From assembly GCF_000160695.1 (NCBI RefSeq), contig NZ_GG694006.1, positions 794,932 to 858,931 of the forward strand: DNA of 64,000 bases. Direction: 5' to 3'. The notes beneath the pieces were generated by a model. That model did not search any database, had not been told where the DNA came from, and saw nothing but the letters and a program-made list of their open reading frames with translations. Shown here piece by piece: positions 27,039 to 62,991 of the stretch (position 1 is its first letter; each line of letters opens with the position of its first letter). The translations under genes and the position numbers were made by a program. The stretch is from Centipeda flueggei ATCC 43531 (lineage in GTDB: Bacteria > Bacillota > Negativicutes > Selenomonadales > Selenomonadaceae).

Positions 27039-30000
27039 TTACGCAAACAGCTCAACCTGATTGCTCTCCATCATGCCGTCGAGGCAGCCGTGCGTACGCA
27101 GTACCTCAATGGCAGGCGCGGCCACATGAGCGCGCGTCGCGAGATCCTCGACGGAGATGAACCGTCCGTCCCGCCGCGCCTCGACAATCGCCTGCGCCGC
27201 CTTCTGTCCCATGCCCGGAATGGCAGTGAAGGGAGGCAAAAGGGAGGTTTCGTGCAGGATGAACTTCTCTGCGTCAGACGCATAAAGATCGACGGGCTCA
27301 CAGGAGAAACCGCGCAAATACATCTCCCAGGCAAGCTGCAGAACGATGAGCGTGTCCTGCTTCTTGTTGTCCAGCTTGCCGCGGTGCTCGCGCGCCTCGG
27401 CGAGGAGCGTGTCGATTGCCGCACGCACGGCATCCTTGCCCTTCGAGATGATATTCGCATCGAACTCTGCGGCGCGAATGGAAAAGTAAGCGGCGTAGTA
27501 GGCGAGCGGATAGTGCACCTTGCAGAACGCGATGCGGTAGCCCATCATGACGTACGCGGTCGCATGGGCGCGCGGGAAGAGGTATTTGATCTTCTGACAG
27601 GACTCGATGTACCACTCGGGAATCCCGCCCGCGCGCAGTTTCTCCACGACATCGGGCGCGATACCTCTGCCCTTTCGTACGTTTTCCATCGTCTTGAACG
27701 ACAGCAGCGGGTCGATACCGTTCTGCATGAGGTAGTTCATGATGTCGTCGCGCGCGGAGATCGCATCCTTCAGCGTACTTGTGCCCGCCTTGATGAGATC
27801 CTGCGCATTGCCGAGCCAGACGTTCGTCCCATGGGAAAAGCCAGAGATCCTCACGAGATCGGCGAAACAGTCGGGGTTCGAGTCGTCAATCATCTTCTGC
27901 GTAAACGACGTGCGGAACTCCGGGATGCCGTACGTCCCCATATTCGCCCCGAGATCCTCAGGCGTGATGCCGAGCGCGTCGGTCGAGGTGAAAATGGACA
28001 TGGTCGCGGGATCGTCAAACGGGATGGTCTCGGGGTCGCGGTGCGTCAGCTCCTCGAGCATCTTGATGACCGTCGGATCATCGTGTCCGAGAATATCGAG
28101 CTTGACGAGGCGCTCACTGATGGAATGGTAATCAAAATGGGTCGTGAGTGTATCCGACTCCATATTGTTCGCAGGGCGCTGGATGGGCGTGAAATAGTGC
28201 ACGTCCATGTCGCGCGGAACGACCATGATGCCGCCCGCATGCTGGCCCGTCGTTGCCTTGACCCCCATGCAGCCGCGCATCATGTGCTCGATGTAGGGAC
28301 GGCCCTTCGCCGCGCCCTGATCCTCGTAGTAGTGCATGGCGTAACCGTAGGCATTCTTGTCCTGCAGACCTGCGATCGTACCCGCACGGAATACATTCAT
28401 CTTGCCGAAAAGAACTTCCGTGTACTTGTGCGCGACGGGCTGATAGTCGCCCGAAAAGTTCAGATCGATATCGGGCACCTTGTCCCCGTCAAAGCCGAGG
28501 AACACGGCGAACGGGATGTTGTGTCCGTCCTTGATGAGCGGCGTGCCGCAGACGGGACAGTCCTCGGACGGCAGATCAAAGCCGCTCCCGACCGAGCCGT
28601 CGTCGATGAACCGATTGTACTGACAGTGCGGACAGCGGTAGTGCGGCGGCAGCGGGTTGACCTCGGTGACGCCGATCATCGTCGCGACAAAGGAGGAGCC
28701 GACTGATCCGCGCGAGCCGACGAGATAGCCGTCGTCGTTGGATTTTTTCACGAGGCGCTGAGCGATGATGTAGAGCGCGGCAAATCCATGCCGCAGGATC
28801 GGCTTCAGCTCGAGTTCGAGACGGTCGGAGACGATCTTCGGCAGATTCTCGCCGTAGAGTTTCCGCGCGCGTGCGTAGGACATCTCCTGAATCTCGCGGT
28901 CCGCACCCGGTACCATCGGCGCATAGAGCTCATCGGGGATCGGGAGAAAGCGCTCCGTCTCCTCCGCGATGCGGCGCGGATTCGTCACAACACACTCGTA
29001 GGCGCGCTCCGCACCGAGGTAGTCGAACTCCGCGAGCATCTCCTCCGTCGTGCGCAGATAGAGGGGCGGCTGACGCTCGGCGTCGCGGTAACCGTTCGCC
29101 TTTTGGATCATGGCGCGGTAGACGGCATCCTCGGGATTGAGGAAATGCACATCGCAGGTCGCAATCAGGGGTTTTCCAAGTTTGCGCGCCAGCTCGTCCA
29201 CCTTGCGGTTGATGTCCCTGAGATCCTCGTCCGTCTGCATGGGGAAACGATCGTCAAATTTCAAAAAGTCATTGTTGTGAATGGGCTGGATTTCGAGGAA
29301 GTCGTAGAACTGCGCCATCTCCTCCAGCTCCGCATTGGGACGCCCCGCGACAATGCCGCGGATCAGCTCGCCTGCCTCACATGCGGAGCCGACGATAATC
29401 CCCTCGCGGTGCTGCTGCAGGACGGCACGCGGCACACGCGGGCGGCCGCGCTTCTTCGTCCCGCGGAAATAGCGGATGTGCGAGAGCGAGACGAGCTTAT
29501 AGAGGTTATAGAGCCCCGTCTTGTTCTTCGCCAAAAAGATGATGTGAAAGGCACGGGCGTCGTCCTCGCCGTCGACGAGATAGCCCTCCATGCCGTAGAT
29601 GATCTTGATGTCGATGCCCTTTTTCGCGAGGGCACGCGCCGTATTCATCGCCTCGGGGAATGCCTGCACGACGCCGTGGTCAGTGATGGCGACCGCCGGC
29701 CAGCCCCAGCGCGCCGCCGTCTCGACAAGCACCTTGGGCGGGACGACGGCATCGAGCGCGCTCATCTTCGTATGCGCGTGCAGCTCGACACGTTTTTCCT
29801 TCGACGTATCCTCGCGCTGCGGGACACTGCGCTTCTCCATGCTGTCGATAAAGAGCACGTAGTCGCTGATAAATTTATCGTATTCGATTTTTCCTTGGAT
29901 ACGCACAGCCCCGCCCTTGCCGATCGCCTTGAGAATGCGCACGACCTCTGCATCGATCTCCTCCTGCGTCGTCTTTCCTCGTGCGGAGAAGAATTTTTTG

Positions 30001-30806
30001 CAGCTGATGCCGTTCGTCGCATCGGCAAATTTGAGAAGAAGGATGTAGGCGCCGGACTTCAGCTGATTCGCCTGCGGGTCAAAGACCTCACCCTCGAGGA
30101 CAACGTTCTTTACTTCATCCTCGATTACGCCCAGCTCACGCGCCTCGCCCGACACACCGCGCCCGATAATAACCTCGGGGGAAAGTCTCTTCGTCTTCGC
30201 ATTCTTTGCCGTATGCGCGGGTGCCGCAGACGGAGTGGCGGCCTTCGCCGGAACGGCAGGCACAGCGGGCGGTGTCCAGTCTGCCCCGGGGAGTGCCCCG
30301 CTGAGCGCGGACTCCTCGCAGACGACGCGGCAGGCACAGCCGACACGGGTGCGCACGGCACTCTCGATGCGCCCTGCCGCACCGCTCTGTGCGAACAGTT
30401 CCGCACCGAACGTTCCCGGTGCAGAAAGGCGTATCACATTTCCGTCCACGGCATAGTCCGCCTGCATCAGTGTGTGATAGAGAACGGCATCCCCGGCGGC
30501 GGCATCGCGAACGATACTCTCCCACAGAGGGGCAACAGCAGGTGCGAGTGCAACGATATTCTGCTGGATGAGCACCTGCGACAGCTGATAGTTTTCTGCT
30601 ACCTGTGCTGCGGCGCGGTCTATGAGTGCGTCATCCATGATCATCTGCGTGCCGACGACGATTTCCCACGTATCGCCGCGTACCTCGACATGACGCACCG
30701 CACAGGCACGCAAAAGAGCCCGCTCCTCATCGTCAAGAGCGAGCCCGTGCAGCAGGCGCAGCAGCAGATCCGCTGCACACGGAAGGATGCGGTATGTCTT
30801 CGTCAT
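27039..30806 (-). CDS. polC: PolC-type DNA polymerase III alpha subunit lacking the exonuclease insert
   Basis: Replicative polymerase of 1255 residues; Bacillus PolC is about 1437. Order seen: N-terminal domains (1-210, with an Ala/Pro linker near 175-200), OB fold (about 225-325), PHP domain start HAHTKMSALDAVVPP (343-357) and ITDHGVVQAFPEA, then the rest of PHP, the zinc finger CPHC...CPVC, palm PDIDLNFSGDYQP, and a C-terminal helix-hairpin-helix region. In ordinary PolC a DEDDh proofreading exonuclease of about 180 residues is inserted in PHP after YGVEAYLV. Here GMEGYLVDGEDDARAFHII passes straight into the second half of PHP. Last gene of its operon, overlapping the transglycosylase gene by four bases. 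Confidence 0.95.
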   Translation of the reverse strand: MTKTYRILPCAADLLLRLLHGLALDDEERALLRACAVRHVEVRGDTWEIVVGTQMIMDDALIDRAAAQVAENYQLSQVLIQQNIVALAPAVAPLWESIVRDAAAGDAVLYHTLMQADYAVDGNVIRLSAPGTFGAELFAQSGAAGRIESAVRTRVGCACRVVCEESALSGALPGADWTPPAVPAVPAKAATPSAAPAHTAKNAKTKRLSPEVIIGRGVSGEARELGVIEDEVKNVVLEGEVFDPQANQLKSGAYILLLKFADATNGISCKKFFSARGKTTQEEIDAEVVRILKAIGKGGAVRIQGKIEYDKFISDYVLFIDSMEKRSVPQREDTSKEKRVELHAHTKMSALDAVVPPKVLVETAARWGWPAVAITDHGVVQAFPEAMNTARALAKKGIDIKIIYGMEGYLVDGEDDARAFHIIFLAKNKTGLYNLYKLVSLSHIRYFRGTKKRGRPRVPRAVLQQHREGIIVGSACEAGELIRGIVAGRPNAELEEMAQFYDFLEIQPIHNNDFLKFDDRFPMQTDEDLRDINRKVDELARKLGKPLIATCDVHFLNPEDAVYRAMIQKANGYRDAERQPPLYLRTTEEMLAEFDYLGAERAYECVVTNPRRIAEETERFLPIPDELYAPMVPGADREIQEMSYARARKLYGENLPKIVSDRLELELKPILRHGFAALYIIAQRLVKKSNDDGYLVGSRGSVGSSFVATMIGVTEVNPLPPHYRCPHCQYNRFIDDGSVGSGFDLPSEDCPVCGTPLIKDGHNIPFAVFLGFDGDKVPDIDLNFSGDYQPVAHKYTEVLFGKMNVFRAGTIAGLQDKNAYGYAMHYYEDQGAAKGRPYIEHMMRGCMGVKATTGQHAGGIMVVPRDMDVHYFTPIQRPANNMESDTLTTHFDYHSISERLVKLDILGHDDPTVIKMLEELTHRDPETIPFDDPATMSIFTSTDALGITPEDLGANMGTYGIPEFRTSFTQKMIDDSNPDCFADLVRISGFSHGTNVWLGNAQDLIKAGTSTLKDAISARDDIMNYLMQNGIDPLLSFKTMENVRKGRGIAPDVVEKLRAGGIPEWYIESCQKIKYLFPRAHATAYVMMGYRIAFCKVHYPLAYYAAYFSIRAAEFDANIISKGKDAVRAAIDTLLAEAREHRGKLDNKKQDTLIVLQLAWEMYLRGFSCEPVDLYASDAEKFILHETSLLPPFTAIPGMGQKAAQAIVEARRDGRFISVEDLATRAHVAAPAIEVLRTHGCLDGMMESNQVELFA

Positions 30807-31970: not shown

Positions 31971-34595
31971 TTACTTTGCCTCCGCCCAGTTCTTCCCAAC
32001 ATGTACATCGACGGCAAGCGGCACAGCCAGCTCTGCCGCCCCGCTCATCGCTGTGCGCAGAAGCTCCGTGACCGTCTCCGTCTCCTCTGCCGTGACCTCC
32101 ATGACAAGCTCGTCATGCACCTGCAGCAGGATGCGGCTCTTTACGTCCGCCGCCTGCAGTGCGTCGTAGGCGCGCACCATCGCGATCTTGATGAGGTCAG
32201 CTGCCGTCCCCTGAATCGGCGTATTCATCGCCATGCGCTCCGCGAAGGAGCGCTGCATATAGTTGCGGCTCGCGAGCGCAGGAAGAGCGCGCCGCCGCCC
32301 GTAGAGCGTCGTCACATAGCCGTTCGTATGCGCATCCGCCACAATTTTGTCGAGGAAGGTGCGTACGCCGTGATAGCGTTCAAAATAACGATCGATATAG
32401 CCGCCGGCCTCCCTGCGCCCGATGCCGAGATCGCGCGCCAGACCAAAGTCGCTGAGCCCGTAGACAATGCCGAAATTGACCGCCTTTGCACGGCGCCGCT
32501 GCTCCGGTGTCACCGCGTCCAGCGGCACACCGAACACCTCCGCTGCCGTGCGTGCATGGATATCCTGCCCGTGACGGAACGCGTCAATCAGCGTCGCATC
32601 GCCCGACATGTGCGCGAGGATGCGCAGCTCGATCTGCGAGTAGTCCGCCGAGAGGAGTGCGTCATAGCCCTCACCCGGCGTAAAGAGGGCACGCACGGCG
32701 CGCCCCTCCTCCGTCCGCACGGGGATGTTCTGGAGGTTCGGGTCGGAACTCGAGAGCCGCCCCGTCGCCGTCACGGTTTGGTTAAAGCTCGTATGGACGC
32801 GCCCCGTGGCGGGGCGGATGAGTGCGCCGATGCCGTCGAGATAGGTCGAGCGCAGCTTCGTCCACATACGGTAGGTCAGCACATTATCAATGATGGGATG
32901 CTGATCACGCAGCCCCTCCAAGGTTTCCGCATTGGTCGAGTAGCCCGTCTTGGTCTTTTTGACCTTCCCGCTGCCGAGCCCGAGGTGCTCAAAGAGGATC
33001 TCCCCGAGCTGCTTGGGAGAGCTGATGTTGAACTCCGCCCCCGCAAGTGTATGAATCTCACGGGCAAGCGCATTGATGCGCTCTGTCGCTGCCGCACGCT
33101 CGCGCTCAAGTGCCGCGCGGTCCACGTAAACGCCCGTCTGCTCCATCGCCGCAAGCACAGGGACAAGCGGCAGCTCCACCGTGCGGTAGAGCTGCATCAG
33201 CCCCTGCGCGGCGAGCTCCGTCTCCATGACGGGCTGCAGGCGTGCGCCAAGAAGTGCCTCGCGGACAGCGTACGCCTCGGAGGAGAGCCCCTCCGCCGAG
33301 GTCGCAGTACCAAGGAACGCAAACGCCGCGCGCGCAATGTCGCGTCGGCTCTCCTCGGGGTGCAGCAGATAGTCCGCCAGCTCCAGATCAAAGACCTGTG
33401 CCGTCCCCTGCAGCCCCGCCTGTACGTAGCGCTTCGCATTCCAGAGCGTGACGGAGCGCTCTGCCAAGCATGCCAGAATCGCGGCAAAATGCGGAGACGA
33501 CGCAGATGCGATGCGCCGCTCCCCATCCACAACGAGGGCGAGTGCCGTAATCTTCACGAAGGGCGGCGTACCCGCAAAGACGCCGCCGACAGCGGCCTTC
33601 TCCGCCGTGCGCAGCAGCGCCATATCGGCATCACAAAATTCCGCTGCCGTGAGGTCAGCCGCAGGTGCAGTCTCGCCAAAGAGCGACTGCTGCGCTGCGG
33701 CGGAAGCCGGTGTCTCAGCCGCTCCTAAGTACTCCGACAAGGCACGCCCGACCGTGCGCAGCTCATAGGCATGACAGAACGCCTCAAGCGCAGCACGGTC
33801 GGGCTGCATGCGGAATGCCTCCGCATCGTAGCGCAGCTCCGGCACATGACATTCGATCGTGGCGAGCTGCTTGGAGAGCAGTGCCTGCGCGCGATATTTC
33901 GCGAGCGACGTGCTGAGCTTTTTCCCGCTGACCTCTGTGGCATGGTCAAGAACGTTCTCGATGGTCTCATAGGCAAGCAGGAGCTTCGTCGCCGTCTTCG
34001 GGCCGACGCCGGGCACACCCGGAATATTGTCCGAGCTGTCCCCCATCAGCCCCTTCATATCGATCAGGCGGATCGGCGGAAAGCCATACTCCTCCTCGAA
34101 CGCCGCCGTATCATACGCCTTCGTCTCACTGATGCCCTTCTTCGTCAAAAGGACGGTGAGCTGCGGACGGATGAGCTGCAGGGCGTCGCGGTCGCCCGTA
34201 ATGACGCGTGTCTCCACGCCCTCTGCCGCCGCCTGCACCGCGAGCGTGCCGATGATGTCGTCCGCCTCGTAGTCATCAAGTTCGAGAAACGAAATGCCGA
34301 GTGCCTCCGCCAGCTCCTTCAGCAGCGGAATCTGGGCGATCAATTCCTCCGGCGTTTTGTCCCGCGTTCCCTTGTAGTCGGGATAAAGAGCCGTGCGAAA
34401 CGTCGTACGGCTCCTGTCGAATGCGATGACGATCTGTGTCGGCGACAGCTCCTTCAGGAGCTTTACGAGCATCATGGCAAAGCCATGTACTGCATTCGTA
34501 TGAATTCCGCGCGCATTCGGCGGGAGCTGCAGCGCATAGAACGCGCGAAAGAAGAGGCTGCTCCCGTCAATGACGGCAAATATTCCGCTGCTCAC
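31971..34595 (-). CDS. polA: DNA polymerase I (no active 3'-5' exonuclease)
   Basis: 874 residues. The N-terminal 5'-3' nuclease shows DGSSLFFRAFYAL, ITGDRDALQL and GVPGVGPKTATKLL. The polymerase shows GRLSSSDPNLQNIP, SADYSQIELRILAHMSGD and LLQVHDELVME. The middle domain lacks the DxE of an active proofreading site, as in many Firmicutes. The start codon is GTG 34595, overlapping the stop of the preceding gene (GTGA). Confidence 0.96.
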   Translation of the reverse strand: MSSGIFAVIDGSSLFFRAFYALQLPPNARGIHTNAVHGFAMMLVKLLKELSPTQIVIAFDRSRTTFRTALYPDYKGTRDKTPEELIAQIPLLKELAEALGISFLELDDYEADDIIGTLAVQAAAEGVETRVITGDRDALQLIRPQLTVLLTKKGISETKAYDTAAFEEEYGFPPIRLIDMKGLMGDSSDNIPGVPGVGPKTATKLLLAYETIENVLDHATEVSGKKLSTSLAKYRAQALLSKQLATIECHVPELRYDAEAFRMQPDRAALEAFCHAYELRTVGRALSEYLGAAETPASAAAQQSLFGETAPAADLTAAEFCDADMALLRTAEKAAVGGVFAGTPPFVKITALALVVDGERRIASASSPHFAAILACLAERSVTLWNAKRYVQAGLQGTAQVFDLELADYLLHPEESRRDIARAAFAFLGTATSAEGLSSEAYAVREALLGARLQPVMETELAAQGLMQLYRTVELPLVPVLAAMEQTGVYVDRAALERERAAATERINALAREIHTLAGAEFNISSPKQLGEILFEHLGLGSGKVKKTKTGYSTNAETLEGLRDQHPIIDNVLTYRMWTKLRSTYLDGIGALIRPATGRVHTSFNQTVTATGRLSSSDPNLQNIPVRTEEGRAVRALFTPGEGYDALLSADYSQIELRILAHMSGDATLIDAFRHGQDIHARTAAEVFGVPLDAVTPEQRRRAKAVNFGIVYGLSDFGLARDLGIGRREAGGYIDRYFERYHGVRTFLDKIVADAHTNGYVTTLYGRRRALPALASRNYMQRSFAERMAMNTPIQGTAADLIKIAMVRAYDALQAADVKSRILLQVHDELVMEVTAEETETVTELLRTAMSGAAELAVPLAVDVHVGKNWAEAK

Positions 34596-62331: not shown

Positions 62332-62991
62332 TCATAGATTTCGTTTCAATTTTTCCAGATCGGGGAACAGCTCGCCGATCGAGTTTGAAAGGCCGTCGCT
62401 CGGCTCTAGGATCTCGAGGACGGGGCGCATGGTCTCACGAAACTTTGCGTCATCCTGCATGAGTGCGAGAACCGCACTCGTATTGACGGCATCGGCAAGT
62501 GCCGAGTGCTGACTTCCCTCGAATCGACGCCCCATCGCGCCGAGTGCATGCTTCAGGGCAAGGCTGTTATGGAGCCCGAGGCGGTCGTCGAACTCCTGCT
62601 GGAGGTCAACCCAGCGTGTATCGAGCCACGTGACGTCAAAGTCCGGCAGCTTCAGACGGCACTCCTTGCGCAGCTGTTTAATATCGGACATGCTCCACGA
62701 GTAGATCTTCGTCTCTGCCTCGCCGATCCACGCAACGAATGCGTGAAAGCTGTCGGCGAACGCGGGATGCCCTGCGACCTTCTCCTGGGTGATGCCCGTC
62801 AGCTCGGTGATGTGCTTCTTTACCATCCCATACTCAGGACAGACATAGCACTGAAATTCGTCCTCCTGCACAAAATCCTCATTCAGGCGCACCGCGCCGA
62901 TCTCGATGATTTCTCCGTTCAATTTCCTGCGGACATCCCGGTATTCCTTCCCCACGGGATTCATTTCCAAATCTACGACGATGTGTTTCAT
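62332..62991 (-). CDS. DEDDh-type 3'-5' exonuclease (DnaQ/KapD-like)
   Basis: 219 residues. Exonuclease motifs: IVVDLEMNP (D7, E9), a middle Asp in SWSMSDIKQL, and H-x4-D in HSALADAV. The layout is closest to KapD or Eri1-like exonucleases, which act on RNA ends in some organisms; DNA activity is not excluded. Single gene, convergent with tmRNA. Of interest because PolC in this window lacks its own exonuclease. Confidence 0.85.
   Translation of the reverse strand: MKHIVVDLEMNPVGKEYRDVRRKLNGEIIEIGAVRLNEDFVQEDEFQCYVCPEYGMVKKHITELTGITQEKVAGHPAFADSFHAFVAWIGEAETKIYSWSMSDIKQLRKECRLKLPDFDVTWLDTRWVDLQQEFDDRLGLHNSLALKHALGAMGRRFEGSQHSALADAVNTSAVLALMQDDAKFRETMRPVLEILEPSDGLSNSIGELFPDLEKLKRNL

Follow-up and report, generated by a model that had tools for sequence, protein, structure and literature searches.

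By its sequence, the polC gene in the 64,000-nucleotide stretch of Centipeda flueggei ATCC 43531 DNA analysed here (the window) is a full-length, working-looking PolC gene whose product lacks the DEDDh exonuclease (Exo), like the PolCs of the other sampled Negativicutes. All nine metal ligands of the PHP domain are present in this protein, and we estimate a probability of roughly 0.6 that PolC editing in this bacterium would rest on PHP. The main interest lies in the wider pattern, in which one editor has been lost repeatedly beside the other, with a natural D-to-N substitution in the reverse case.

An exonuclease-less PolC and its PHP site

The features of the gene that bear on this reading are as follows.
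27039..30806, minus strand: polC, encoding an Exo-less PolC-type DNA polymerase III alpha subunit of 1255 aa (Pfam, NCBIfam and structure matches)
27045..27059, minus strand: beta-clamp binding motif QVELF, residues 1250-1254, near-consensus (consensus taken from the available part of PMC3919608)
28464..28472, minus strand: catalytic aspartates of the palm, D779 and D781, in PDIDLNFS (sequence reading)
28974..29792, minus strand: PHP domain, residues 339-611, with nine metal ligands (alignment and structure model)
29523..29603, minus strand: the seam, residues 402-428, IIYGMEGYLVDG-EDDA-RAFHIIFLAKN (sequence reading)

The 1255-aa open reading frame scores 1397 bits against the NCBIfam model NF001688 (cut-off 873) and 1293 against TIGR01405 (cut-off 1043). 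Pfam places PHP at residues 341-501, the Pol3 core (DNA_pol3_alpha) from residue 638, the fingers at 910-1046 and an HhH region at 1169-1248, and an OB domain N-terminal to PHP is marked by residues 223-340, which align with the pre-PHP region of Geobacillus kaustophilus PolC (PDB 3f2b). The Pfam search returned no match to the RNase_T exonuclease family PF00929 anywhere in the 1255-aa protein. Across the seam, 13 residues lie between E407 and H421, where the DEDDh exonuclease of other PolCs puts 204-219 residues between the flanking ligands. The preliminary description had the two halves of PHP joined directly at 29530-29600, an interval that falls inside the seam, and this is borne out, as are its length comparison (1255 against about 1437 aa) and its view that the rest of the gene is intact. 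Exo-bearing PolCs measure 1377-1490 aa as stop-to-stop frames (n = 32; 31 of them 1407-1490 aa and one 1377 aa), and the palm residues D779/D781, PHP and the clamp motif QVELF are all kept.

Structural alignments agree with this layout. Enterococcus faecium PolC (PDB 9qpc, the full protein) aligns with the window PolC in two pieces that flank Exo, and 3f2b aligns end to end without a break because Exo had been deleted from that construct, according to the available text of PMC12592400. The window protein thus lacks the hallmark of a typical PolC, a DEDDh exonuclease inserted in PHP, and has the attributes of the Exo-less variant described by Timinskas et al. (2013): a PolC without Exo that belongs to Clostridia or Negativicutes and shares its genome with DnaE1. 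As Timinskas et al. keep such proteins within PolC, we file it as the Exo-less variant and not as a typical PolC.

The nine ligands of the PHP site (HHDHEHCDH) are H343, H345, D352, H377, E407, H421, C476, D552 and H554. In the alignment with Mycobacterium tuberculosis DnaE1 (7pu7), D352 corresponds to D23 and D552 to D226. The PHP exonuclease of that enzyme binds three zinc ions through nine residues and is inactivated by D23N or by D226N, as reported in the available part of PMC5636811; the same text records no PHP exonuclease for G. kaustophilus PolC, in which one of the nine ligands is changed. In our alignment, the Bacilli PolCs with solved structures, 3f2b and 9qpc, both have N at the position of D552. 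A predicted model of the window PHP domain, made with 48 Exo-less sequences as input, has a mean pLDDT of 95.3 and matches PHP of E. faecium PolC 9qpc (Z 38.9, rmsd 1.2, 260 aligned), T. aquaticus (Z 30.1) and M. tuberculosis DnaE1 5lew (Z 29.0, rmsd 2.0, 243 aligned). As modelled, the window PHP closely resembles active-type PHP domains.

We propose the following mechanism. Exo normally sits in a loop of PHP that lines the groove leading to the PHP site (insertion point as given in the available text of PMC5636811); this loop is short in the window PolC, as in DnaE polymerases. A mispaired primer end would then be edited by the zinc-type PHP exonuclease of PolC itself, as in M. tuberculosis DnaE1, with mismatch repair (MutS) as a putative backup. 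PHP and Exo would in this way be two interchangeable built-in proofreaders of PolC, either of which can be lost. We infer that PHP may be catalytically active in Exo-less PolCs generally and proofread in the cell. Our search of the open-access literature found no paper on the activity of an Exo-less PolC.

Exonuclease absence and PHP ligands across Bacillota

PolC was found in 60/60 relatives (the own genome, 13 others of its genus and 46 more; one best match per genome, one of them partial), and in each the best match spans the seam with no Exo-sized insert, that is, with at most 24 residues more than the query over the whole match. A sequencing deletion confined to this assembly, named by the preliminary description as a result that would count against it, is at odds with this sharing among sister genomes; the absence of Exo is no assembly artefact. 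Exo is missing as well from 8/8 named Negativicutes loci and from the PolCs of Moorella thermoacetica (L176), which shares the layout and has intact PHP ligands, and Desulfosporosinus fructosivorans. On the tree the PolCs of Selenomonas ruminantium and Anaerovibrio fall inside the window's family code f1 and have near-identical partners there, a placement that most likely makes the family Selenomonadaceae, class Negativicutes. Two of the relatives carry additional PolC sequences: G032 has an extra 900-residue frame covering query residues 327-1198 plus broken pieces with stops, and G033 has two full-size copies plus pieces.

Of 119 genomes drawn from the phylum with families balanced, 91 gave a PolC match and the other 28 gave none at E 1e-100. 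Exo is missing from 55 of the 87 PolCs whose state could be decided (53 matches crossing the seam, plus G122 and G154 from sequence; four fragments set aside) and present in 32. An alternative frequency, 66/98 among the aligned loci, was dropped because Exo-bearing loci of usable length had all been fetched and Exo-less ones only in part. One Exo-less PolC, that of G461 (L284), has an open frame 1853 codons long, far above the usual length, which may be a fusion or a frame extending beyond the real start. The available part of Timinskas et al. (2013; PMC3919608) gives the Exo insertion as missing in 6% of PolCs, which apart from one come from Clostridia and Negativicutes, and in 16% of the PolCs of PolC+DnaE1 systems; that 6% and our 55/87 come from samples of different kinds. 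What the preliminary description took to be an unusual trait is class-wide in our sample and was already in print in 2013, and the window PolC is an ordinary further member of the published Exo-less variant.

PHP ligands were counted in 241 of 250 aligned PolCs, nine loci being dropped as their PHP positions were not all readable; part of the aligned loci had been picked mostly for low scores, in search of exceptions. All nine ligands occur in 115/115 PolCs without Exo, of which the window's genus contributes 14, and in 3/3 PolCs with an Exo bereft of its catalytic residues. Where Exo is intact, the ligand set is whole in 108/123 and changed in 15/123, so that changed ligands are seen solely beside an intact Exo (15/123 versus 0/118). 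In 13 of these 15 the change is D to N at the position of D552, equivalent to the inactivating D226N of M. tuberculosis DnaE1; two Exo-bearing PolCs are distinct from this Bacilli-type change, L273 with T at the position of C476 (HHDHEHTDH) and L271 with two apparent ligand changes (HHDHEPFDH). None of the 241 sequences is a PolC with both editors lost, which is an observation and not a proven rule.

This count has to be read with kinship in mind. The PHP state changes only 4 times on the tree, and the kinship-corrected comparison, which had no power to reveal one, gave no association between PHP and Exo (9 supported independent pairs, same direction 0.8 on average, median p 1). As an intact PHP is the usual state, found in 108/123 PolCs with Exo too, it says little taken alone. 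The conserved ligands could serve folding instead; a structural role is claimed for PHP of Escherichia coli in the available text of PMC3666897.

Other candidate sources of fidelity

Three other proteins of the genome bear on the alternatives, with P0003 encoded in the window and P0002 outside it.
G000:C8:294800-298183: DnaE-type protein, taken to be DnaE1 (sequence match)
L002:1444-1983, contig C4, minus strand: P0002, DnaQ-like protein of 179 aa (PF00929, E 2.6e-11)
62332..62991, minus strand: P0003, stand-alone DEDDh-superfamily protein of 219 aa (PF00929; nearest models KapD and ERI1)

PolC was called the main replicase in the preliminary description, an assignment that we do not retain: the genome also has DnaE1, with all nine PHP ligands present, and PMC3919608, in the part available, regards it as unknown how the two polymerases share the work in PolC+DnaE1 bacteria. 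It is possible, though doubtful, that DnaE1 copies the genome and that the role of PolC is specialised or minor, so that its proofreading would carry little weight. The idea has been raised for PolC+DnaE1 bacteria (PMC3919608, available part), and it fits the intact PHP site of DnaE1 and the 28/119 genomes of the phylum sample that yielded no PolC match at E 1e-100. On the other hand, PolC with its catalytic palm residues is kept in 60/60 relatives, and the window PolC ends in a near-consensus clamp motif. Across 30 Exo-less genomes, 29 of which gave a DnaE match, the nine ligands are present in 27 of 30 DnaE loci, one locus is partial and two carry N. One of these two is the second DnaE of G096 and the other, L338, is the sole strong DnaE match of G095; this single genome among 30, with N in its only strong DnaE, counts against the reading that PHP edits.

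A separate DEDDh exonuclease acting in trans, in the manner of epsilon, is an unlikely substitute. The genome search proposed in the preliminary description found two PF00929 proteins, P0002 and P0003, neither of them a supported replicative proofreader. P0003 was rejected as a likely one, its nearest models being KapD and ERI1, which leaves P0002 as the candidate in the window's genus. In its favour, P0002 keeps residues resembling DEDDh, occurs in 14/14 genomes of the genus and has a C-terminus, YEEQSLF, that is identical in all 14 and resembles a clamp motif. Yet the first motif position of this tail is E instead of Q, and P0002 falls below the NCBIfam cut-off of every epsilon model that it matches and so does not qualify as a replicative epsilon subunit. 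It is also restricted mainly to the genus, with 6/46 of the other relatives carrying it (20/60 in total) although the PolC is Exo-less in 60/60, and was rejected as a proofreader of the whole class. Nor does it appear to be the excised Exo of PolC, since it groups with stand-alone proteins, at low support, in an Exo-domain tree that is itself weak (185 columns, at least one misread row, L124, with a branch length of 10).

The broader distribution of such proteins likewise speaks against action in trans. PF00929 matches occur in 52/60 relatives, with none in G038, G050 and G058, three relatives of 96-100% completeness. Stand-alone PF00929 proteins are not enriched where Exo is missing (29/40 Exo-less versus 28/40 Exo-bearing genomes), and the same holds for the small ones (20/40 versus 23/40, p 0.65). 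In 11/40 Exo-less genomes none was detected by the PF00929 search, which may miss weak relatives, and the PHP site of PolC is intact in all 11. The preliminary description had allowed for either a separate proofreader or PHP-based editing. The second is favoured, with its nine ligands in place; the first loses ground, as the distribution of stand-alone DnaQ-like proteins does not follow the absence of Exo.

Mismatch repair offers no discrimination as a specific compensation, since MutS domain I is found in 80/80 genomes, Exo-less and Exo-bearing alike (78 of the 80 shared with the stand-alone PF00929 set). The same ubiquity would suit the idea, which we regard as quite improbable, that PolC does no proofreading and that accuracy is owed to base selection, mismatch repair and the PHP site of DnaE1. 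A changed mutation bias could also be reflected in the base composition around these genes: in 9/13 sister comparisons the DNA around the Exo-inactive PolC is richer in GC than that around its Exo-active counterpart, a weak trend (p 0.04 by Wilcoxon test, 0.27 by sign test). Against this idea, the nine ligands are fully retained over many separate Exo-inactive lineages, which is unexpected for a useless site.

Near polC lies a gene for DNA polymerase I (31971-34595, minus strand), which matches the Pfam 5'-3' exonuclease and polymerase families. It has no match to a Pfam 3'-5' exonuclease family and DEDDy residues are not apparent by eye; judged on these grounds, this enzyme is probably also without editing.

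Repeated exonuclease loss and comparison with known polymerases

The presence of an active Exo has changed many times. A tree of 230 PolCs, computed on columns of PHP and the polymerase with the ligands and the Exo region excluded and 11 same-genus rows left out, requires at least 13 changes of the Exo-active state, and at least 11 changes are required among 60 chosen rows. For these 60 rows a single clade of Exo-active PolCs is rejected (lnL 961 worse, AU p 5e-68; quick tree, simple model). The AU test does not reject one common origin for the Exo domains of PolC (p 0.82), and the scattered absences are therefore best read as losses. Going by their placement, clear late losses are those of the Lachnospiraceae L178, L197 and L211, which are Exo-less and nested in an Exo-bearing clade, and of L082, Exo-less beside Exo-bearing L070 and L076. 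Some Exo-less loci have long seams, of 39 residues in L082 and 84 in L069, which look like Exo remnants. Three further PolCs, from records titled uncultured bacteria or metagenome bins, keep an Exo domain of 203-214 residues with the catalytic positions replaced (the sisters L200 and L228, and L242, which aligns poorly).

For the window lineage, we infer a loss at the stem of Negativicutes. Of the clean domain loss in the preliminary description, what is borne out is that the domain is cleanly missing while the gene is intact; its attribution to a loss by this lineage is the conditional part. That the Exo-less form is ancestral and Exo was gained, possibly by whole-gene transfer, is very unlikely: several Exo-less groups do lie near the midpoint root and the change counts are blind to gain versus loss, but the unrejected single origin of Exo (AU p 0.82), the nesting of Exo-less PolCs within or beside Exo-bearing ones and the remnant-like linkers and dead Exo domains all speak for loss.

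Taken over the phylum, it is about an even chance that PolC has two interchangeable proofreaders, that Exo has repeatedly been lost or killed on an intact PHP and that Negativicutes and many Clostridia edit via PHP alone. If so, the PHP domain of PolC would be a real proofreader, and some PHP-only editors would have no DEDDh protein in the genome at all. Losses and decay of both editors across Bacillota could then be read as a history of exchange between proofreaders. The means by which PolC+DnaE1 bacteria secure accurate replication are described as an open question in the available part of PMC3919608, and natural Exo-less PolCs, together with the few whose Exo is dead, take the confounding proofreader away with no need for engineering.

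Compared with the Exo-less PolCs of Timinskas et al. (2013), and as far as the available part of that paper describes them, the window PolC has the same N-domain, OB, uninterrupted PHP, Pol3 and (HhH)2, the same taxa and the same pairing with DnaE1, and differs in nothing of kind. Our analysis goes beyond that work in the class-wide presence in a larger sample, the repeated change of state, the PHP-site count and the dead-Exo examples. Two engineered proteins, 3f2b and the Staphylococcus aureus PolC without N-domain and Exo (available parts of PMC3656037 and PMC12592400), share the layout of the window PolC except that they have no N-domain. Polymerisation by the S. aureus construct is fast (PMC3656037, available part), and 3f2b has a Bacilli PHP site, with N where the window PolC has D552.

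M. tuberculosis DnaE1, as described in the available text of PMC5636811, resembles the window PolC in its nine-ligand PHP and in an adjoining loop without an Exo insert, which has 29 residues there against 13 between the two ligands in the window PolC. It belongs to the DnaE family and its PHP activity has been demonstrated, whereas the window PolC is known from sequence and a model. A 2026 study (PMC12926913) maps three proofreaders onto the C-family polymerases, with PHP and DnaQ-type domains as alternatives and HHDHEH[C/H]DH as the PHP motif, and the available part of its text states that in Pol III alpha subunits it is PHP, not DnaQ, that is inactivated. L200, L228 and L242 show the reverse, with the catalytic residues of Exo replaced and PHP intact. 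Should the PHP of PolC indeed edit, the statement that PHP is always the inactivated domain would need a footnote.
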